Assembly (NCBI RefSeq): GCF_902150035.1
Contig: NZ_LR597504.1
Coordinates: forward strand, 62,001-126,000
Length of the DNA stretch: 64,000 nt
Direction of reading: 5' to 3'
Origin: Enorma burkinafasonensis
Lineage (GTDB): Bacteria > Actinomycetota > Coriobacteriia > Coriobacteriales > Coriobacteriaceae
Shown: positions 3,245 to 64,000 of the stretch, piece by piece
Position numbering within the stretch: the first letter of the stretch is position 1
Layout of the letters: every line of letters starts with the position of its first letter
Translations under genes and position numbers: made by a program
The notes under the pieces: generated by a model
Database searches by the model: none
Told to the model about the DNA's origin: nothing
The model's input: the letters and a program-made list of their open reading frames with translations, nothing else

Positions 3245-6163
3245 ATGGCCTCCTGCGCTGGCGCTTCCCCTATAGACGAGGCGCTCCTTCCCGCGACGCC
3301 GCGCTTCGTCGCGGACGCCTACTACACGCTCGCCGAACGGGCGAAGACGATGCGCTTCGGGCTCATCGAGGAGGACGTGGTCATTCTCGATACCGAGACG
3401 ACGGGCCTCTCCGTGCAGGACAACGAGCTCATCGAGATCTCCGCGGCGCTGCTTTCAGGCGACAGGATCGTCGAGCGCTTCGACACCTTCGTGCATCCGA
3501 CGGGGCTCATCCCCGCCGAGATCACGAAGCTCACCGGCATCACGCAGGCGGATGTCGCCCACGCGCCCACGGCGCGCGAGGCGGTGGCCGAGCTCGCCAC
3601 ATTCGTCGGGGGAAGGCCGGTCGTCGCCCATAACGCCACATTCGACCGCTCCTTCATCGAGTCGGTCAAGGGCGGCGTTGAGGTGAGCGACATCTGGATC
3701 GACTCTCTCGCGCTCTCGCGTATCGCGCTGCCGCGCCTGAGCTCGCACAAGCTGTCGTTTCTCGCCGAGGTATTCGGCTGCGCGTCGGTCTCGCATCGCG
3801 CGACGGACGACGTCGATGCGCTCGCGGGCGTGTGGAGGGTCATCCTCACCGCGCTGTCCGACCTGCCTGGCGGCCTGCTCCGCCTGCTCGCGGACACGCA
3901 TCCGGATGTCCCATGGGTCTACCGGCCCATCTTCTCCTATCTCGCGCAAGCCCATATGGGGACACCGTTCTCCCTCGCCGAGGAGCGCGATCGGGTCCTC
4001 GGCGACGTGCAGGAGGATGAGCGGATTGACGCCGACGAGCTGCTATCGCTCAGGTTGCCCACGGAGGAGGAGATCGTCTCCTGCTTTGGGGAAGGCGGCC
4101 TGGTGAGCCGTATGTATCCCGAGTACGAGCCACGTCGCGAGCAGGTCGAGATGGCCTGCGAGGTCCGCGACGCCCTGGCCACCTCCACGCACCGCGCCAT
4201 CGAGGCCGGCACCGGGGTGGGTAAGTCCATCGCCTATCTGGTGCCCTTCGCCGCCGCGGCCCGGGCGAACCGCATCACCGTGGGTATCGCGACCAAGTCG
4301 AACAACCTTGCCGACCAGCTCATGTACCACGAGCTGCCCAAGCTCGCCGATTCGCTCGACGGCGGCCTCACCTACTGCGCCCTCAAGGGCTTCGACCATT
4401 ACCCCTGCCTGCGCAAGATGGAGCGGCTCGTGCGCAGCACGGCGGAGATCCAGACGAAGAAGGACCCCGCCGACACCCTGACGGCGCTCGCGGTGCTCTA
4501 CGCCTTCGTGTGCCAAAGCCCCGACGGCGACCTCGACGCGCTCGGCATCAGGTGGAAGAGCGTCAACCGCGCGGAACTCACCACCGGTTCCAGGGAGTGC
4601 GCGCGCAGGCTCTGCCCGTTTTTCCCCAACCGCTGTCTCGTCCACGGCGCGCGCCGCCGCGCGGCCCAGGCGGATGTCGTGGTGACCAACCATTCGCTGC
4701 TCTTCCGCAACGTCGCCGCCGAGGGGAAGATCCTGCCGCCCATACGCCATTGGGTCATCGACGAGGCCCACGCGATCGAGCGCGAGGCGCGCCGGCAGTG
4801 GGCGATCGGCATCACGGCTGAAAACTCCCGTGCCCTGTTCGAGCACCTCGGCGACGGCACGACAGGTGTCTTGGGCGCGCTCTCCCATGCGGCTGCCCCG
4901 GCCGAGGCGACGACGCTCTACCAGGGACTCGTCGCCCGCGCCGTGAGCACGGTGAACCGCGCCTCCGCGGCCATGGCCGAGCTGTTCGCGGCCGTGCGGG
5001 ACGCCGCCGGCCATACGCGCTCTGGTGGATACGACCAGATGACCGTGTGGATCGGGCCCGAGATGCGGCAGAGCGGCGCGTGGGAGGTGCTCGCGCTCAC
5101 GGGCCAGAGCGCCATCGACGCGCTCGAGCAGGCGGACAAGGCGCTCGCTGCCGTGGTGGAGACCTTCGCCTCCGAGATGCCGGAGCAGATGGCCGAGGTC
5201 GCCGACCCTGCGCGCCGCCTCCACGAGACGCTCGCGGGCCTTCGTCTGATCATCGAGGGGACCGATACCGCCTACGTTTACGCCCTGCAGGTGAATAGGC
5301 GCCTGCGCGCCGGTGGCGAGGCGCTCACCGCCGAGCGGCTGGACATCGGCGAGGCGCTCGCCGCGGATTGGCTGCCCGAGGTCAAGACGGCGGTTTTCGC
5401 GTCGGCGACCATGTCGGTTTCGGGCGGGTTCGAGCATTTCGAGCACGCCATCGGTCTCGACCGCCTGCCCGCGGGCTCGTCGCGTTCGCTCCATCTGGAC
5501 TCGAGCTACGACTTCGACGCCAACATGGCCGTCGTGGTCGCCTCGGACCTGCCCGATCCGCGGAACCGCCCCGCCTACCTCTCCGCTCTGGAGGACCTGC
5601 TGGTGGACATCCATATCGCGATGGGCGGCTCGGTGCTCACGCTCTTCACCAACCGGCGCGACATGGAGGAGCTGTTCGATGCCGTGCAGCCGCGCGTCGC
5701 GGCGGCGGGGCTCACGCTCGCCTGCCAGCAGCGCATGAGCTCGACGCGGCGCCTGCGCGACCGCTTCGTGAGCGAGCGCACGTCCTCGCTCTTCGCACTC
5801 AAGGCGTTCTGGGAGGGTTTCGACGCCTCGGGGGAGACCCTGCGGTGCGTGGTCATCCCCAAGCTGCCCTTCGCGAGCCCCACGGACCCGCTCTCCTGCG
5901 AGCGCGCGCTGCGCGAGGACCGCGCCTGGGCGCGCTACGCGCTGCCCGATGCGGTGCTCGAGGTCAAGCAGGCGGCAGGCAGGCTCATCAGGTCATCGAC
6001 CGATACGGGCGTGCTCGTGCTGGCGGACTCGCGCCTGGTCAGCAAGGGTTACGGCAAGAAGTTCCTGAACTCGCTGCCCACGACGACCTATCAGCGCATC
6101 GAGGCGCATCGTATCGGCCAGTACCTCGAGCTGTGGAGGAAGGCTCACGACCGCCGCTCGTGA
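3245..6163 (+). CDS. dinG: DinG-family ATP-dependent helicase fused to DEDD exonuclease domain
   Basis: A 972-residue two-domain protein. The N-terminal third is a DnaQ-like 3'-5' exonuclease: ExoI VVILDTETTGLS (near residue 42), ExoII HNATFDRSF and ExoIII SHRATDDVDA. The rest is an XPD/DinG-type superfamily 2 helicase: Walker A EAGTGVGKSIAY, DEAH box WVIDEAHAIE and motif VI QAAGRLIRS. Between Walker A and DEAH are cysteines arranged like an iron-sulfur cluster (YPCLRK, then ECARRLCPFFPNRC). The exonuclease-helicase fusion is well known in Firmicutes and some Actinobacteria. It probably unwinds and trims DNA during repair or replication restart. The start abuts the ddl stop. Its 3' end overlaps the convergent pafC gene by 19 bp. 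Confidence 0.92.
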   Translation: MASCAGASPIDEALLPATPRFVADAYYTLAERAKTMRFGLIEEDVVILDTETTGLSVQDNELIEISAALLSGDRIVERFDTFVHPTGLIPAEITKLTGITQADVAHAPTAREAVAELATFVGGRPVVAHNATFDRSFIESVKGGVEVSDIWIDSLALSRIALPRLSSHKLSFLAEVFGCASVSHRATDDVDALAGVWRVILTALSDLPGGLLRLLADTHPDVPWVYRPIFSYLAQAHMGTPFSLAEERDRVLGDVQEDERIDADELLSLRLPTEEEIVSCFGEGGLVSRMYPEYEPRREQVEMACEVRDALATSTHRAIEAGTGVGKSIAYLVPFAAAARANRITVGIATKSNNLADQLMYHELPKLADSLDGGLTYCALKGFDHYPCLRKMERLVRSTAEIQTKKDPADTLTALAVLYAFVCQSPDGDLDALGIRWKSVNRAELTTGSRECARRLCPFFPNRCLVHGARRRAAQADVVVTNHSLLFRNVAAEGKILPPIRHWVIDEAHAIEREARRQWAIGITAENSRALFEHLGDGTTGVLGALSHAAAPAEATTLYQGLVARAVSTVNRASAAMAELFAAVRDAAGHTRSGGYDQMTVWIGPEMRQSGAWEVLALTGQSAIDALEQADKALAAVVETFASEMPEQMAEVADPARRLHETLAGLRLIIEGTDTAYVYALQVNRRLRAGGEALTAERLDIGEALAADWLPEVKTAVFASATMSVSGGFEHFEHAIGLDRLPAGSSRSLHLDSSYDFDANMAVVVASDLPDPRNRPAYLSALEDLLVDIHIAMGGSVLTLFTNRRDMEELFDAVQPRVAAAGLTLACQQRMSSTRRLRDRFVSERTSSLFALKAFWEGFDASGETLRCVVIPKLPFASPTDPLSCERALREDRAWARYALPDAVLEVKQAAGRLIRSSTDTGVLVLADSRLVSKGYGKKFLNSLPTTTYQRIEAHRIGQYLELWRKAHDRRS

Positions 6164-20819: not shown

Positions 20820-20894
20820 TGGAGCGGGCAACGGGACTCGAACCCGCGAGTGTCAGCTTGGGAAGCTGATGCCTTACCACTTGGCGATGCCCGC
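20820..20894 (-). tRNA. tRNA-Gly (CCC anticodon)
   Basis: Read on the minus strand: acceptor GCGGGCA/TGCCCGC, anticodon stem TCAGC/GCTGA with loop TTCCCAA, T-arm GTTCGAGTC, discriminator T and encoded CCA (20820-20822). Confidence 0.95.
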
Positions 20895-21107: not shown

Positions 21108-21261
21108 CGCTCGTTGCGGAATTCGGTGTGAAGAATCGAGAGCGTGCCAGTAGCGGCGAAAACAGGATTCATCACCAAGCGATGTACCTGCGGTTTCTTT
21201 ATCTCGCTTGGGACCTTGCGGGAGCAGCGCCCAAAACTCACACCGAATTCCGCAACGAGCG
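21108..21261. repeat. 154-bp intergenic element bounded by 24-bp perfect inverted repeats
   Basis: The left arm (21108-21131) and right arm (21238-21261) are perfect inverted copies; the core is GTTGCGGAATTCGGTGTGA. They flank 106 bp with no convincing gene. A diverged pair with the same core occurs at 60458-60532. The rest of the gap between tRNA-Gly and the next gene holds the tRNA promoter hairpin and nothing else that I recognise. It may be a miniature mobile or REP-like element; no target-site duplication was evident. Confidence 0.75.
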
Positions 21262-21372: not shown

Positions 21373-22836
21373 ATGGGTGGAAGCGAATCGGCATACGGGA
21401 AGCGGCCGGTCGAGGCGGGCGCGCCTTCCGCCTACGCGTACGACAGGCTGGGGGAGACCCTGCGCGCGGCGGAGCTCCCCTCGGTGGACGAGCGCCGCGC
21501 CTTCGGCGAGGCCCTGCGCGACCGGTGCCCGCTCGAGACCCTAGGCACCTGGGAGGTTGCGGAAGGTCGCGGGGAGGTCATCGACCTCATCGAGGAGCAG
21601 TCCGCCACGCGCGTGCCCGAGCTCGTGCCGCTTCGCTACGAGCGCATGGGGGTCTCGCCCTTCACGTTCTTCCGGGGCTCGGCGATCGTGATGGCGCACG
21701 ACCTCGCGCAGATGCCCGCGACCGGCATCGAGGTCCAGTGCGTCGGCGATGCGCACATCGCCAACTTCGGTCTGTTCTTGAGCCCCACGCGCCACCTCGT
21801 CTTCGACATCAACGATTTCGACGAGACGGCACCGGGTCCATGGGAGTGGGATATCCTGCGCCTGGTCGCGAGCGTCGAGATCTGCGGGCGCGACCGGGGT
21901 TTCTCGAAGGAAGACCGTCGCGACGCCGTGCGCGCCTGCGCCAAGCAGTACCGCCACGCCATGAGGGACTTCGCCGCCATGGGTGCGCTCGACGTATGGC
22001 ATGCGCACCTCGACGTGGAGCAGGCGCTCGAGGGCTTCGAGCTCGATGGCAAGCGGGGCAGGACGATCCGGCGGGCCGTCGAGCGCGCACGATCGAAGGA
22101 CAGCGCTCGGGCCGCCGACCACCTTGCGCACGAGGAGGAGGGCGGCCTCAGGTTCGACATGCGTCCCCCGGAGCTCGTGCCGCTCGCGCAGCTTGCGGAG
22201 ACCCAGGGCTACCGTGACGCGGGCGAGCTCATGGCCGCCCTCGAGACCATGCTCGGCCGGTACTTCGAGAGCCTTCCGCTCGATAGGCGCCTGCTGCTCA
22301 GCCGCTACCGCATCCAGGACGGTGCCCGCAAGGTCGTGGGCGTGGGGAGCGTGGGCACGCGCGCGTGGGTGGCGCTGCTCACCGGCAAGGGCGCGGACGA
22401 CCCCTTGGTCATGCAGGTCAAGGAGGCCGGCCAGTCGGTGGTCGAGCACTTCTACAAGCCGTCTTCCTTCGCGCACAGTGGCGAGCGCGTGGTGCAGGGT
22501 CAGCGGCTCATCCAGTCGACCGCGGACATCCTCCTGGGATGGACGGGCGTCACGGCGCCGGACGGCACGCGGCGCGCGTACTACGTGCGGCAGCTCTGGA
22601 ACGGCAAGGGGTCCATCGACCTCGAGGAGATCGGCCCGGAGAGTCTCGAGAACACCGCGAGGCTCTGCGCCTGGGCGCTCGCGCACGCACACGCCCGCAC
22701 CGGGGACGACGTCGCCATCGCGGCCTACCTCGACCGGAAGCACGACTTCGAGGACGCGCTCTGGGACTTCGCGCGTGCCTACGCCGACCAGAACGAGGGC
22801 GACTACGCGGTCTTCATGGAACGTCATGGCAGATGA
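21373..22836 (+). CDS. DUF2252 family protein
   Basis: A 487-residue cytoplasmic protein. The family core is clear: an N-terminal RYERMGVSPFTFFRGSA, then VQCVGDAHIANFGLF, VFDINDFDETAPGPWEWD and later VMQVKEAGQSVVEHF. The conserved Asp-rich blocks and GDxHxxNFG motif recall aminoglycoside-phosphotransferase/kinase-like folds, so a phosphotransfer role is possible, but no reaction is established. The ATG at 21373 follows TTGGGGG at short spacing. It stands alone between the inverted-repeat element and purB. Confidence 0.87.
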   Translation: MGGSESAYGKRPVEAGAPSAYAYDRLGETLRAAELPSVDERRAFGEALRDRCPLETLGTWEVAEGRGEVIDLIEEQSATRVPELVPLRYERMGVSPFTFFRGSAIVMAHDLAQMPATGIEVQCVGDAHIANFGLFLSPTRHLVFDINDFDETAPGPWEWDILRLVASVEICGRDRGFSKEDRRDAVRACAKQYRHAMRDFAAMGALDVWHAHLDVEQALEGFELDGKRGRTIRRAVERARSKDSARAADHLAHEEEGGLRFDMRPPELVPLAQLAETQGYRDAGELMAALETMLGRYFESLPLDRRLLLSRYRIQDGARKVVGVGSVGTRAWVALLTGKGADDPLVMQVKEAGQSVVEHFYKPSSFAHSGERVVQGQRLIQSTADILLGWTGVTAPDGTRRAYYVRQLWNGKGSIDLEEIGPESLENTARLCAWALAHAHARTGDDVAIAAYLDRKHDFEDALWDFARAYADQNEGDYAVFMERHGR

Positions 22837-57347: not shown

Positions 57348-58871
57348 ATGAGCCGGGGCGCCGTGGCGATTCTGCGCGCCGCCGTGCGGCGGGTGCCGCT
57401 CGCCATCTTGGCCATCGCGGGCGTCGTCGAGCTCGCCTGCGCCATCGTGCTCGCGTGCCGCTACTACCAGACGCGCACCTCCGGCCTCGCGCGCCGCGAG
57501 CCGCCGCAGCAGCTTGCGGCCACGGGTGACGCGTCGGCGCACGGCCGCTTCGAGGCGACGGTCTCCTACACCTGCATGGCCTCGCCCACAAGCGAGGCGA
57601 CCTCGACGATAACCTGGGACGATTCCTGGTTCACGGGCGACGCTACGGCCTACAACCACGAGCTCGCCCGCGCCGCGGCCGTGCTCTCGGCCCTCGCGTA
57701 CGCGGAGTCCAACTACTACCAGGCGTCCTACGACTGCCCGCCCTACATGGAGGACGCGCTCGCCGCGCTCGGCTTCGACGAGGTCGCGACCGATTCCTAC
57801 CGCTACCGGAGCGAGATCGTCGACCAGGTGCTCAACGTCTTCATCCAGGAGGAGGACTCGGTTGCCTACACGATCGCCCGCAAGCGCGTCGATGGCGGCG
57901 ACGGGGCCGCGCGCTCGCTCATCCTCGTTTCGGTGCGCGGCAGCTACGGCGCGGAATGGGTGAGCAACCTCTACGTGGGCGAGCAGGGCGGCGCGCGGGC
58001 GCACGACGAGCTCGCGGCCCGTGCCCGCGAGGCGCTCGCGGACGAGGCGGAGCGCGTGCTCGAGTACGGCGACGCCACGGCGCCCGCCGATGGTGCGGCG
58101 CCGGGTGCCGACGGTGCGACTGCCGAGGGCGCCGGCCGGGAGCCCGCCGACACCGAGGAGCGCTAGCGGGCCGTCGCGGCGGCGCTCGCGGAGCGCGGGG
58201 ACCATACCGGCTACACGGACGCCTCGGCCGAGATCATCGAGGCCGTGCGCCCCTGGATCGCGGGGAGCCATCGCCGCGGATAGGAGGTGACGCTCCTCGT
58301 GGTCGGCCATAGCAGGGGCGGCGCCATCGCGAACATCGTGGCGGCCCAGGCGGACGATGAGCTCGCGGGCGAGGCGGCCGGCTCCCTGGGGCTCGCCGCG
58401 GGCGACGCCGTCGCCTGCTACACCTTTGCCGCGCCGGCGACCACGCTCGGCGGCCAGGCGCACGCGGAGCGCTACACCAATATATATAACGTGGTGAACC
58501 CCTCGGACATCGTGCCGTACCTGCCGCTCGCGTCCTGGGGGTACGCGCGCTACGGCGAGGACCTCTACCTGCCCGCCTTCGACGACGCGGGCTTCGAGGC
58601 AGCCTACCGGGAGATGGACGAGCTCTTCGAGCGCGCGGTGGGCGCGCCCTGCCCGTACGACCCGGCGGACGCGCACACGGTGCGCGACGTGGTGGGTGCG
58701 GTCTCCGAGCAGGTGGTCTCTGCCGACGCGTTCCTCACGCCCCAGGGCGTGGCGTCCGTGATCAGCACCTGCGCGACGCGCATGGATCCCATCCGCATCC
58801 TCTACGGCCACTACCCGAGCACCTATATCGCCTGGATGCAGGCGCTCGACGAAGACGGCCTGCGGCGCTAG
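57348..58871 (+). pseudogene. Secreted lipase/alpha-beta hydrolase gene with two in-frame amber stops
   Basis: One reading frame is interrupted by TAG at 58164-58166 and 58281-58283. The first part (ATG 57348) has an N-terminal membrane or signal helix (VPLAILAIAGVVELACAIVL) and a class-3-lipase/DUF2974-like region (LILVSVRGSYGAEWVSNLY). The part between the stops continues the same frame (ALAERGDHTGYTDASAE, IEAVRPWI). After the second TAG the protein carries the nucleophile elbow LLVVGHSRGGAIANIV, then YNVVNPSDIVPYLPL and an end typical of the family. The catalytic Ser is therefore separated from the signal and oxyanion region. A GTG at 58287 could restart translation, but the AGGAGG is too close. 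Probably a recently disabled gene; sequencing error or strain polymorphism is possible. Confidence 0.8.
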
Positions 58872-60172
58872 GCGAGGCGCTCCAGCACGGCGACCGTCTC
58901 GACGTGCGGGGTGTGCGGGAACAGGTCCACGGGCGTGAGCCGCGTGAGCGCGTAGCCGCCCGCCCCCAGAAGCTCGAGGTCGCGCACCTGCGTGGCAGGG
59001 TTGCAGCTGATGTAGACGATCGTGCGCGGGCCCATGGCCGCGGCGGCCGCGAGGAAGGCGGGTGTGGAGCCCGCACGCGGCGGGTCGAGCACGACGACGT
59101 CGGCGTGCCCGCCGGTGGCAGCGGCGCGCTCGAGGTAGGCGGTGGCGTCCTCGGCGATGAAGCGCGCGCGGTCCGAAAGGCCGTTGAGCTCGGCGTTGCG
59201 CACCGCGTCGGCGATGCCCGCCTCGTTGCGCTCGACGCCCACGAGCTCAATCTCGATACCGGTGTCCGCCGCCGCGCGTGCCGCGGTGAGCCCGATCGTG
59301 CCGCTGCCGCAGTAGGCGTCGACGAGCACGTCGCCCGCGCGAAGCCCCATGCCGTCGATGGCGAGCCGGTAGAGCACCTCGGTCTGCTGGGGGTTCGTCT
59401 GGTAGAAGGCCGTGGGCGAGATCTCGAACGTGCAGCCGAGCAACCGGTCGTGCATACAGGGCGCCCCGGCGACGATATGGGTCACGGGGCCCAGCACCGC
59501 GTTGCCCGGCAGGGTGTTGACGTTGTGCGCCACGCAGGCGATGCGCGGGTCGAAGTCCATGAGGGTGCGGGCGAACGCGTCGGCATGCGGGAGGTCGCGC
59601 TTCGCGGTGACGAGCGTGAGCAGCGCCTCCTCGGTGCGCCAACCCATGCGCAGCACCGCATAGCGCAGGATGCCGTGGCGCGTGTCCTCGTCGAAGGCGG
59701 GGATGCCGAGCCGTTCGGCGGTGCGCGCCACCTCGTTCAGGATGCGGCGCGCGCCCGGGGCCTCCACCGGGCAGTCCGGCACGGCGACGATGTCGTGGGT
59801 GCCGCGGGCGTAGAGGCCGCAGCGCACCGTGCCCCCGGGGCCGGGCGCGAAGGGCGTCTGGGCTTTGTGCCTGAAGGCGCGCGGGGCGCTCGCCTTGCCG
59901 GTCGCGCCGGCGTCGGCGCCCATGCCGCGCACCGGGTCTAGCGCGACGTCCCAGCCCATGCGGTCGAGCAGGGGCACGAACAGCTCCTCCATCGCCTGCT
60001 GCTTGCGGGCGAGCTGCTTGCGGTAGGGCATGCCGATCCAGGTGCAGCCGCCGCAGGCATGCATGATCGGGCAGGGACCGCTCGCGGCCTTGGCCTGCTT
60101 GCGCAGGGCGGAATTCGAGACCTTGCGGCGCGGGGCCGACGGTGTGGTGCGTTTCTTGCCGGTGGATGACAT
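58868..60172 (-). CDS. rlmD: 23S rRNA (uracil-5-)-methyltransferase, RlmD/TrmA family
   Basis: A 434-residue SAM-dependent enzyme that makes 5-methyluridine in rRNA or tRNA. The iron-sulfur cysteines are in CPIMHACGGCTW near the N-terminus. The SAM-binding motif is DVLVDAYCGSGTIGLTA, and the catalytic cysteine is in VYISCNPATQVRDL. Middle parts FRHKAQTPF and SPTAFYQTNPQQTEVLY are family-typical. The ATG at 60172 has GGAG at good spacing, after a Lys/Arg-rich start. RlmD and RlmCD/RumA-like types cannot be told apart here. It overlaps the lipase pseudogene by 4 bp, tail-to-tail. Confidence 0.9.
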   Translation of the reverse strand: MSSTGKKRTTPSAPRRKVSNSALRKQAKAASGPCPIMHACGGCTWIGMPYRKQLARKQQAMEELFVPLLDRMGWDVALDPVRGMGADAGATGKASAPRAFRHKAQTPFAPGPGGTVRCGLYARGTHDIVAVPDCPVEAPGARRILNEVARTAERLGIPAFDEDTRHGILRYAVLRMGWRTEEALLTLVTAKRDLPHADAFARTLMDFDPRIACVAHNVNTLPGNAVLGPVTHIVAGAPCMHDRLLGCTFEISPTAFYQTNPQQTEVLYRLAIDGMGLRAGDVLVDAYCGSGTIGLTAARAAADTGIEIELVGVERNEAGIADAVRNAELNGLSDRARFIAEDATAYLERAAATGGHADVVVLDPPRAGSTPAFLAAAAAMGPRTIVYISCNPATQVRDLELLGAGGYALTRLTPVDLFPHTPHVETVAVLERLA

Positions 60173-60457: not shown

Positions 60458-60532
60458 CTCACACCGAATACCGAAGCGAGTAAAGACGGAATCCTGCCCA
60501 TTCGCGAAACCTCGTTGCGGAATTCAGTGTAG
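60458..60532. repeat. Diverged copy of the intergenic inverted repeat
   Basis: The left arm (60458-60480, core CTCACACCGAATACCG) and right arm (60511-60532, core CTCGTTGCGGAATTCAGTG) are imperfect inverted copies, about 18 of 22 positions. They share their core with the 24-bp arms at 21108-21261, but in inside-out order. Four A bases precede CTCACACC in both places. Confidence 0.7.
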
Positions 60533-60573
60533 GGGGAGCCACATATTCCATGCGGGCGAAAAATGTGTCCCCC
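60532..60573. repeat. Bulged hairpin next to the inverted repeat
   Basis: GGGGGAGCCACAT (60532-60544) pairs with ATGTGTCCCCC (60563-60573) with a 2-base bulge, directly adjoining the repeat. There is no T-run, so it is not an obvious terminator. The 630-bp gap 60173-60802 contains this, the repeat, the heptamer array and no gene. Confidence 0.5.
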
Positions 60574-60610
60574 ACCGCAAAACGTGACGGTCCGAGCGGT
60601 AAATCGGCGA

Positions 60611-60802: not shown

Positions 60803-63800
60803 ATGAAGCCAAGCAGTCGGCATGCTCACGAGCGGGATGCGCAGTCCCTGGTTTTCCATATCGAGCGGGGCGCCCGCCGCGCGCTCGGTGTCGCCCGGCG
60901 CGAGTGGCGCGGGGCGCTGGCGACCCTCGTGATCGTCGCGTTCCTGTGGCAGACGTTCGCGTCGAGCGGCGTGGCCTTCGCCATCTCGGAGACCGCGGGC
61001 GACGTGGCCCATACCGTTATGGTGAACGCGGAAAACGGCTCCGCCGACGGTGCGGGCGACGTGACCGAGCCCGCAGGCAGGACCGAGGCGCCGGGCGACG
61101 GCCAGCAGCCGTCCACCCCGAGCGAGCCCGCCGAGCCCGCCGGCAGCAGCGACGATCCTGAGCCCGGCACGCCCGATACGACGACCGTGCCGACGGGGAC
61201 CGAGAGTGATTCCGCCACCACGCAGCAGGGTGGCAGCACCTTGACCTCCCAGAACACCACCCCGGCGACCGAGGCCGAGGAGGGCGCGCCCGAGGGCGAG
61301 CCCACCGGCACCGTGACGCCCGCCGACGACGAGTCCACCGACGAGCCCCGCGCCGTCGAGGCATGGGACTGGACCGGCCGCGCCCAGAACCTCGAGCTCT
61401 CCAGCCCCGATGGCCTCGCGATCGATGAGGAGGAGGTCCGCGCCCACGTCGCCGAGCAGCTCGCCGCTCTCGCCGCCGACGACGCCGAGGATGCCCCTGC
61501 CGCCGAGGCCGAGGACAGCCAGGATGGAACCGAGCCCGCTGCGGGCGAGGACGGCGAGGAGGCCGTCGATACCGCAGAGGCAGCCGACGAACCCGTGCCC
61601 GCCGAGGGCGTCATCACCGAGGATGACGTCCGCGCCCTCCTGCCAGCCCAGCTCCCTGCGACGCTCGACCTCGCCGCAGTGCTCGACCCGGCTGCCAACG
61701 CCGAGACGGGCGACCACACCGTGATCATGCCCGGCGACACCTTCACCGTGAACCTTCCCGCGGGCATCGTGCTCGCGAGCACCGATACCTTCGATATCTA
61801 CCAGCGCGATGCGAACGGTGATGAGACCGGCATCCGCATCGCGACCGCCGAGCCTGCAGCCGATGGCTCCGCGCTCACCATCACCTTCGTCACCGCGACC
61901 GATGCGGCCGGCACCACCTACACCATCGGCGCCCCCACCGAGGGCACCGAGCCCGCCGAGGAGGCGGCGGCCACCGAGGCGCTCGCGACCGCGAAGATCC
62001 GCCTTGCGCTCGAGGTCGAGGTCGATACCGCTCTTATGACCATGGGCGAGGCCCAGATCGAGTGGACCCTCCAGATAGCGACCGATGGCGGTGCCAACCA
62101 GACCGCGGCCCTCACCCTCCCTGCGCTCGACGCCTTCGCGGCGGCGATGGGCATCGAGGGCGAGATCCAGGCGACAGGCTCCGTGGAGACCGAGGAGCCC
62201 ATCGAGGAGGACCCGGCCACCGAGTCGACCACCGAGGAGGACGCCCTCTCCTCGGGCCTTGACGTGCTCAACGCCATGAGCGACCTCATGCTCCTTGCGG
62301 ACGAGAACAAGCCCGCGGACGAGTACCGGCTCAGCAACTTCAACGGGTCCGAGAGCATCACCACGCAATGGGCCGATAACAACAGCGCGAACCGTCCCAA
62401 GGCGGATACCATCAAGGGCAACAGCAAGCTCTACTTCACGGTGAACAGCATGCAGCACGAGTTCACGCCGGCGAACGCGCAGACGTACCTCGGCATGGAC
62501 GAGGCCGCCTACAACGAGCTGCTCGCGCACCTCACCGTCGAGACGACCGGCGTGAACACCGTCGAGATCTCAGCAACGGGCCTGCCCACGCAGCTCACGG
62601 TCACCACCTACGAGCAGAGGCTCGATGGCGAGGGCTTCCCGGTGGTAGACGGCGAGGGCAACCCCGTGTACGACGGCACGGACACCGAGTATACCGTCAC
62701 CTGGCTGTTGAGCCATGATGCCGAGAGCGAGGATTACAGCGCCTATTTCCATGGCAACAGCACGGATGACACCCAGATCTTCCAGCTCGAGTCCGACAAG
62801 TACTTCAACATCATCATGAAGGTCGGCGACGAGGACCCGGGCGCGCTGATCGGTGCCACCGACGCCCGCGTATGGCTCGAGATGTTCGTGGACAACCAGC
62901 CCTACGGGACGAGCTACTCGCTTGCCGCCCTCTATGCGATGAGCGCTGAGGATCGGGCGCAGATCGGCATCGAGATATCGTCGGACGATTGGGACGAGCA
63001 CAACCAGCTCGTCATCACGCTCACCTCCCCGCAATACACGCCCGATGGCAAGCCCATCGAGTACCGTATCCGCTACGAGCGCGACCAAACCCAGACGACG
63101 GACTACTACGGGGCGACCTACGACAACACCGCCGTGCCCAACCGCGGCAGCGACGTGACCGCTGCCTACGGCGGCACCTCGCAGGAGACGGCCGGCTCGA
63201 TGATCCTCACGCACGTGGGCGTGACCGACTTCACGGCCAACAAGGCGTGGCTCGACGGCAGCAACCCCACGAAGCGCGGCGCGGTCACGTTCAGCCTCTG
63301 GCGTTACTCCAACGACGGCTCCGCTGCCACGGCGTCTCAGGTTCGCGGTACGGACGGATCCTTCGTGACCATCACGGTCGACCCGACCGATTCGCGGGCT
63401 TCCACGCGGGTGGCAGACGGCGGTTGGCTCAACGAAGACGGCACCATAAACCTGGGCGCCGTACTCGAAGACCAGCATCCGAACCTGGTCCTCGGCAAGT
63501 ACGACACCGACGGGTACCCCTTCCTGTACGGCGTTCGCGAGGACACGCAGCTCGCCGACTACGAGATCGTGCTCGGCAGCGTTGCCGATGACGGCACTGT
63601 GACCGACACCGCGCCGAATTACGAGAACCGCGGCGGCGGGAGCACCGCCATTGAGGACTATAGCCGCCCGTCGACCGACCGCCTCACCTACAACGGCGGC
63701 ACGGTGAGCAACCGCCTGACGGGCCAGACCACGGTCACCGCGACCAAGACCTGGGCCATGGACGCCTTCGCCGACCAGGTGAAGGGGATCACCTGCGAGT

Positions 63801-64000
63801 TCACCCTGCAGGAGTGGGTCGCTGACGACAGCGAGGCCGGCGGCCATTGGGCCGACGTGCTCGGCGACGACGGCAACGCCGTGACCCAGGACCTCGACGG
63901 CTTCAACGCCGAGCAGCTCACGCTCGACATCAGCGGGCGCTTCGACCGCTATGACGAGGAGGGCGAGGAGATCCGCTACCGCTGGGTCGAGTCCGGCGTG
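60803..64000 (+). CDS. Large secreted surface protein with Cna_B-like domains, truncated by window end
   Basis: An open frame of 1066 codons with no stop before the window ends. The ATG at 60803 follows AAGGAAG. The N-terminus is basic, with a hydrophobic signal segment (ATLVIVAFLWQTFASSGVAFA). Residues about 50-190 are a Pro/Glu/Thr/Ser-rich acidic stalk. The region from about 195 to 500 alternates acidic low-complexity and beta-rich parts (TVIMPGDTFTVNLPAGIVL resembles adhesin bacterial-Ig folds). Further on, modules opening DFTANKAWLDG and TVTATKTWAMD match Cna_B-type repeats, which start with a T-K-x-W motif. It is probably a wall-anchored adhesin; the C-terminal sorting signal is not visible. 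The PHO-box-like repeats lie upstream. Confidence 0.85.
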   Translation, partial: MKPSSRHAHERDAQSLVFHIERGARRALGVARREWRGALATLVIVAFLWQTFASSGVAFAISETAGDVAHTVMVNAENGSADGAGDVTEPAGRTEAPGDGQQPSTPSEPAEPAGSSDDPEPGTPDTTTVPTGTESDSATTQQGGSTLTSQNTTPATEAEEGAPEGEPTGTVTPADDESTDEPRAVEAWDWTGRAQNLELSSPDGLAIDEEEVRAHVAEQLAALAADDAEDAPAAEAEDSQDGTEPAAGEDGEEAVDTAEAADEPVPAEGVITEDDVRALLPAQLPATLDLAAVLDPAANAETGDHTVIMPGDTFTVNLPAGIVLASTDTFDIYQRDANGDETGIRIATAEPAADGSALTITFVTATDAAGTTYTIGAPTEGTEPAEEAAATEALATAKIRLALEVEVDTALMTMGEAQIEWTLQIATDGGANQTAALTLPALDAFAAAMGIEGEIQATGSVETEEPIEEDPATESTTEEDALSSGLDVLNAMSDLMLLADENKPADEYRLSNFNGSESITTQWADNNSANRPKADTIKGNSKLYFTVNSMQHEFTPANAQTYLGMDEAAYNELLAHLTVETTGVNTVEISATGLPTQLTVTTYEQRLDGEGFPVVDGEGNPVYDGTDTEYTVTWLLSHDAESEDYSAYFHGNSTDDTQIFQLESDKYFNIIMKVGDEDPGALIGATDARVWLEMFVDNQPYGTSYSLAALYAMSAEDRAQIGIEISSDDWDEHNQLVITLTSPQYTPDGKPIEYRIRYERDQTQTTDYYGATYDNTAVPNRGSDVTAAYGGTSQETAGSMILTHVGVTDFTANKAWLDGSNPTKRGAVTFSLWRYSNDGSAATASQVRGTDGSFVTITVDPTDSRASTRVADGGWLNEDGTINLGAVLEDQHPNLVLGKYDTDGYPFLYGVREDTQLADYEIVLGSVADDGTVTDTAPNYENRGGGSTAIEDYSRPSTDRLTYNGGTVSNRLTGQTTVTATKTWAMDAFADQVKGITCEFTLQEWVADDSEAGGHWADVLGDDGNAVTQDLDGFNAEQLTLDISGRFDRYDEEGEEIRYRWVESGV

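Follow-up and report, generated by a model that had tools for sequence, protein, structure and literature searches.

Dispersed intergenic elements with paired inverted arms around a core sequence found across the Coriobacteriales

The window analysed here is a stretch of 64,000 nt (C22:62001-126000) of the genome of Enorma burkinafasonensis (G000; 2,234,109 bases in 48 contigs). It contains two sites with related inverted repeats (Table 1). At the first, situated upstream of a DUF2252 protein gene whose start codon lies 111 nt past the right arm, the 24-bp perfect inverted repeat enclosing 106 bp that had been predicted from the sequence was recovered exactly, i.e. the arms of 24 nt are 100% complementary and spaced by 106 nt. 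Between them lies a conserved core, ACCTGCGGTTTC, a feature that had been overlooked in the original prediction, which saw the arms only. At the second site, the predicted diverged pair with the opposite nesting order was confirmed, with three mismatches in each arm; between these arms, only a weak core-like CCTGC near position 60493 could be read by eye. The bulged hairpin that had been described beside this copy appears in the fold at positions 60531-60574, directly after the copy. The run AAAACTCACACCGAAT is common to both sites, but it does not precede the arms as had been claimed, as it includes the arm start. The pattern CTCACACCGAATTCCGCAAC, with up to three mismatches allowed, has four matches in the window versus none in 100 dinucleotide shuffles.

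Table 1. Features at the two element sites, with positions in the window.
Feature	Position	Strand	Basis or remark
tRNA-Gly (CCC), left neighbour of the type-A element	20820..20894	-	
Type-A element, whole	21108..21261	+	one of 18 type-A copies in the genome; 74 nt between left arm and core, versus the usual 63 nt
Left outer arm, CGCTCGTTGCGGAATTCGGTGTGA	21108..21131	+	inverted-repeat search; consensus over 18 copies
Conserved core, here ACCTGCGGTTTC, order-wide form ACCTGCGGTTTT	21186..21197	+	comparison of copies; search of relatives with the exact form
Right outer arm, repeating the left arm in inverted orientation	21238..21261	-	inverted-repeat search
DUF2252 protein gene, right neighbour of the type-A element	21373..22836	+	gene calling and Pfam
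tRNA (uracil-5-)-methyltransferase-like gene, left neighbour of the type-B copy	58868..60172	-	gene calling and Pfam
Type-B arm	60458..60477	+	mismatch pattern search
Type-B partner arm	60514..60533	-	mismatch pattern search
Long ORF leaving the window end, no Pfam match, right neighbour of the type-B copy	60803..64000	+	gene calling and Pfam

A search of the whole genome for the arm 18-mer with at most three mismatches yielded 41 places (20 forward, 21 reverse), and none for the reversed-pattern control. Forty of the 41 form 20 inverted pairs, comprising 18 copies of type A, the arrangement of the first site, and two inside-out copies of type B (60458-60533 and L044). The remaining match, with three mismatches, stands alone at C16:208317, while all others sit in short pairs. 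The window sites are thus not the only two occurrences in the genome. In all 18 type-A copies the arms are near-invariant (consensus roughly GCACGYTCGTTGCGGWATTCGGTGYGA), and all 18 contain the core ACCTGCGGTTTT or a close form of it, 71-72 nt from the right arm end. The distance from the left arm start to the core is 63 nt in 16 of the 18 copies and 73-74 nt, i.e. 10-11 nt more, in the window copy and in L046. The element can be described as a dispersed non-coding unit of about 135-165 bp that has an outer arm at either end, a core between them, and optionally an inner site on each side of the core.

Arms and core are conserved, and the interior is mostly variable among the G000 copies. The exceptions, found in 1260 comparisons, show a modular history in which halves were reassorted between copies: L039 and L042 are similar along their entire length, the similarity within the pairs L040/L048 and L032/L045 is confined to the left half, and the right half is shared by L032, L041, and L040. 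The strongest matches pair left halves with left halves and right halves with right halves. The similarity of related copies mostly stops at the arms; 7 of 8 flanks show none beyond them, and the right flanks of L039 and L042 remain similar for about 25 nt further.

All 20 copies lie between called genes, and the neighbouring genes are unrelated. The gene calls come from a gene finder written for this analysis, which placed 85.6% of the 204,907 G000 bases analysed in genes. Pfam names among 37 flanking proteins (the left neighbours of L037 and L043 not being included) included UvrC, RapZ, RecR, YbaB, GatC, thymidylate synthase, dihydrofolate reductase, UvrD helicase, and MFS transporter. No common function was seen among these 37 proteins and a regulon of neighbours was rejected, so that gene content gives no support to the suggestion of a shared regulatory structure. 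Neither a transposase nor a recombinase was found among the same proteins. Target-site duplications, proposed as a further check, were not found above the level of permuted flanks in the 18 copies for lengths of 2, 3, 4, 5, 6, or 8 nt. Arms flanking a longer, gene-carrying element were not found in the 48 contigs, where a parent located at a contig break could escape detection.

The arm motif is specific to this genome. Of 395 order genomes, G000 alone contained it with at most one mismatch, the 394 others having none; with two mismatches, six of the 59 other genomes of a nearer sample contained a single match each. A scan for the exact arm in the GTDB r220 species collection gave seven contigs of unrelated taxa with one match each, none of them from Neisseria, and viral contigs contained no match. 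On the basis of these scans, a dispersal of the arm in other species or phages was rejected. Sister species, Collinsella, and members of other families of the order have elements of the same architecture with other arms. Between many classes the arm sequences are wholly different while the geometry holds, as illustrated by AAAACTATGCCGGTTTACTACG and AAGTGAGTAGACTTTT in G197. In G081, the arm TTGCGGGGAAACG occurs several times per element, with sites at -80, -42, +26, and +64, and the arms contain palindromic pairs; in G013, the arm CTTGGGAGAG is doubled and the arms are 32 bp apart. An inner inverted pair is frequent, e.g. GACCA/TGGTC or CGAGTAG/CTACTCGG. Near-identical orthologues were left out of the comparison from which the inner pairs and the core half-sites were derived. 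Judged by eye, the arm of one class in G002, AATCCCACACAGTATCG, is similar to that of G000, so that drift of the arms is also possible.

The core, in contrast to the arms, is order-wide. Its exact form ACCTGCGGTTTT was found in 64 of 65 genomes of the family, including G000, and reached 29 exact copies in a single genome; in a sample of 158 genomes from the order, 123 contained it. There were 390 copies in 36 family genomes versus 3 for the control, and 288 copies in 122 other genomes of the order versus 18, the control being the pattern read backwards, which matches the composition only roughly. For family genomes and one viral contig, 45 of 69 exact-core sites lay between inverted arms with a score of at least 11, compared with 0 of 69 after shuffling of the flanks. 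Arms scoring at least 12 were present at 17 of 36 core sites from four sister genomes, which belong to the same genus. For two further families, arms were present at 29 of 44 sites versus 1 of 44 controls. The remaining sites (24 of 69, 19 of 36, and 15 of 44) were without clear arms at the thresholds used. These sites are a selection from the listed ones, fewer than the total that exists. Sites closer than 60/70 nt (69- and 36-site sets) or 50/60 nt (44-site set) to the end of a stretch were left out. The sister set excludes cores that do not match the relaxed form ACCTGC[AG][GT]?TT, as well as cores with a weak inverted repeat and without an exact ACCTGC[AG]GTTT, and L104 is therefore absent from it.

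In relatives, the arm centre mostly takes one of two positions relative to the core. The offset was -3 in 21 and +8 in 16 of the 45 armed sites, and between +7 and +9 in 16 of the 17 armed sister sites; in the other families, 11 of 29 offsets fell at +6 to +8 and the remainder were scattered. The two main offsets, -3 and +8, are thus 11 bp apart, close to one DNA turn. A circular test at 10.5 bp gave a strong signal, 0.94 for the 69-site set and 0.95 for the sister set, values that are dominated by the two geometries shared by descent. When these were removed, no such phase was present in the 15 remaining offsets of the other families (p = 0.32). We therefore claim only two conserved geometries about one turn apart and no general rule; they may simply be two old subfamilies.

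Presence and absence can be compared at individual gene gaps. In G000, G003, and G004, an element is located between ybaB and recR, with different arms and the same geometry. The same gap in G002, where the genes are about 90% identical to those of G000, is 13 nt long and has no element, and gaps of roughly 40-55 nt without an element were found in G197, G198, G033, and G013. In G009, the gap is longer and contains only a weak inverted pair, and no real match for the gene pair was found in G001. Between uvrC and rapZ, G000 is the only one of five genomes of the genus that has an element. The elements of sister species are mostly at other places than in G000, and of the core loci in sister genomes only the ybaB-recR ones coincide with the location of a G000 element. 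In the loci compared, we found no active transposition, no mobiliser, and no clean insertion junction.

A Collinsella aerofaciens record contains a transposase with 98.9% identity to one of G211. It also contains an intergenic stretch, without annotation, that matches a G197 element and a few of its flanking bases at 92% identity along the full length. Genus g3 was therefore taken to be Collinsella (family Coriobacteriaceae, order Coriobacteriales); G000 belongs to another genus of the Coriobacteriaceae. In Collinsella, class-c elements occupy the same locus in many species and the copies are 70-76% alike over their full length. The Collinsella copies appear to be older, many of them being shared between species. 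A clean empty site was rejected for this genus: in the one absence examined, that in G031 and G198, the whole intergenic block is replaced. In G211, an insertion sequence of the IS256/mutator family (445-aa transposase, PF00872) lies inside an element with a 9-bp duplication (L246 1-1500 with L140), and an element of G197 (L135/L090) is likewise interrupted by the end of this IS. G197 also has a 2407-aa gene between two pairs of elements (L137; C1:1821500-1838500). Locus L101 of G033 has a single class-b element, the flanks of which match both outer sides of L137 by eye, as if recombination between elements had removed the 2407-aa gene.

Several families of short repeats are similar to these elements in some respects. 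ERIC sequences have a similar length, and ERIC and YPAL/RU-2 are recognised by a sequence conserved throughout, whereas the present elements combine conserved arms and core with a variable interior. According to excerpts from PMC2229807, the enterobacterial ERIC and YPAL/RU-2 are likewise short, intergenic, non-coding repeats, and YPAL/RU-2 is of similar length. The Correia/NEMIS elements of Neisseria are alike in having a 24-bp terminal repeat and similar sizes, with 107- and 155-bp species and a reported IHF site (excerpts from PMC2229807 and PMC2649163). They have TA ends and target duplications, whereas no duplication is found here, and core and arms are unrelated; the seven contigs with arm matches elsewhere include none of Neisseria. 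In E. coli BIME-1 and REP doublets, as here, two inverted units surround a central segment, which in BIME-1 binds IHF (excerpts from PMC2817692), and both kinds are extragenic, dispersed, and lineage-specific. REPs are also known IS targets, according to excerpts from PMC2817692 and PMC1525189, and an IS interrupts elements in G211 and G197. On the other hand, the arms here are long and non-palindromic, the centre is a 12-mer common to the whole order, the spacing is nearly constant, and there are about 20 copies, compared with usually more than 100 for REPs. The palindromic 20-40 nt unit with a GTAG-like foot of RAYT-linked REPs is absent from the G000 arms by inspection, and no RAYT (Y1 transposase) is encoded among the flanking proteins of the G000 elements. 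The proposed REP/MITE-like family thus holds with respect to the approximately 20 dispersed, intergenic, lineage-specific copies, present or absent by gene gap, but not with respect to target duplications, a flanking transposase or recombinase, or arms around a gene-carrying element. Since each of the classes REP, MITE, and att site fails in a tested feature, the element is assigned to none of them.

Chance or low complexity is a negligible explanation, which nothing favours and which is refuted by the genome counts with a control of 0, the shuffles with 0, and the arm tests in relatives. The arms could instead be the two strands of a long transcribed stem, i.e. a structured RNA, an attenuator, or an RNase III processing site. 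The very stable RNA fold of the window copy (-77.3 kcal/mol, z -6.9), which is due to the arms, and the complementarity kept in all the different arm classes are in line with this. However, the fold of the type-B copy is unremarkable, being equalled or surpassed by many shuffles (z -1.4, 18 of 200), and neither the window nor 20 loci had a relevant match to the Rfam covariance models, so that a known structured RNA family was rejected. If the stem were functional, variable arm positions should match within copies, which they do not over 32 columns (449 matches of arm partners versus 447.7 expected, p = 0.45). The central 20 columns have a slight excess (338 versus 330.3, p = 0.005), which leaves room for pairing or concerted change in the arms, and the six innermost columns have none (p = 0.89). 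Mismatches occur freely within G000, and the sequence identity of arms between copies is not required by a stem. For the most part, the arms behave like a single motif present twice, each copy independent of the other, as expected of sites bound by protein. The little pairing covariation favours protein-bound DNA over folded RNA, and we regard the RNA explanation as very unlikely.

A plain MITE, i.e. the remnant of a DDE transposon with the arms as terminal repeats and with core and spacing as relics of descent, is somewhat less improbable than an RNA stem and still quite unlikely. The elements are dispersed and lineage-specific, and they share with MITEs the terminal inverted repeats, the lack of coding capacity, and a length below about 200 bp (excerpts from PMC2229807). 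The similarity of the whole interior is found in the Collinsella class-c copies, but the interiors of most G000 copies are unrelated despite near-identical arms. In addition, there is no target duplication above permuted controls, no autonomous transposon or other parent element with the same arms was seen in the 48 contigs of G000, and the same core lies inside unrelated arms across the order. Unlikely, too, and slightly less so, is a family of attP-like recombination sites, with the core as the crossover site of a tyrosine recombinase and the arms as arm-type sites for this recombinase or for a partner protein, in which elements recombine at the core. The attP sites of phages and ICEs that use tyrosine recombinases have a core of two inverted half-sites, separated by an overlap of 6-8 nt, and arm-type sites at set distances. 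The present core is an imperfect inverted pair, roughly CGCRRG-N7-CCTGCG with a 7-nt spacer, a strong right half, and a weak or degenerate left half. The arm sites lie at fixed offsets, several per element in G081 and G013, halves are shared left with left and right with right, and there are six tyrosine-recombinase matches in G000 and 13 in G197. In contrast to known attP usage, the chromosome has about 20 full sites, there is no integrase beside them (37 flanking proteins in G000), and no element bounded by attL and attR was seen. The junction of the apparent recombination in Collinsella (L101 versus L137) is, by eye, in the left half and not in the core. As a general rule, a location of the core at integrase att sites was rejected, as core-like strings were near only 2 of 19 integrase matches (L193 and L195) and had no arms by inspection.

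The explanation that we favour, with a confidence that is about even, is a REP/BIME-like DNA docking element, probably mobile, with lineage-specific arms around an order-wide core. Each arm would be bound as double-stranded DNA by a lineage-specific protein, because the arm sequence changes between lineages and the geometry does not. The core would be bound by a factor conserved in the order, which might bend the DNA and thereby bring the two arms together. Lacking any gene, the element would be copied in trans to new intergenic sites, with a mobility sufficient to let it appear and vanish between species. Its mode of action would resemble that of E. coli BIME-1, or that of a recombination site reduced to its arm-type and core-type sequences. 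A tentative extension of this docking element, possible and well short of probable, is an order-wide class of chromosomal nucleoprotein sites. The universal core would be served by a conserved Coriobacteriales factor and the arms by a second protein with a specificity that changes by lineage at fixed arm-core distances, and both proteins together would move or recombine the element. If this were true, the sites would make up a family with two components and no genes, in which one component turns over in the manner of an arms race.

In the open-licence literature, no description of the element in Coriobacteriales or Collinsella was found. Common gut bacteria, Collinsella among them, belong to the Coriobacteriales. 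A conserved signal with arms that are replaced between species would be a handle on a DNA-binding or recombination system yet to be found, and a natural experiment on how protein-DNA specificity may change while the architecture stays fixed.

A few additional observations were made in the loci inspected. A core without clear arms is conserved in several Collinsella genomes (L134, L162, and L179) and lies about 1 kb from an EF-Tu-like gene in G197; other armless cores recur at fixed places (L127/L174/L178 and L172/L180). In the viral contig L126 (8181-10044), an element lies about 250 bp after the gene of a large serine recombinase. No matching phage record was found for this contig, and a stricter pattern of core plus inner site gave nothing in viral contigs. 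Beside a class-c element of G197 (L133, about 4216-4310) there is a second, different short repeat, which has very many copies in Collinsella genomes. The record NZ_OY725717.1 (899,693 bp), labelled as plasmid 6 of C. aerofaciens, carries rho and argS and is probably chromosomal.
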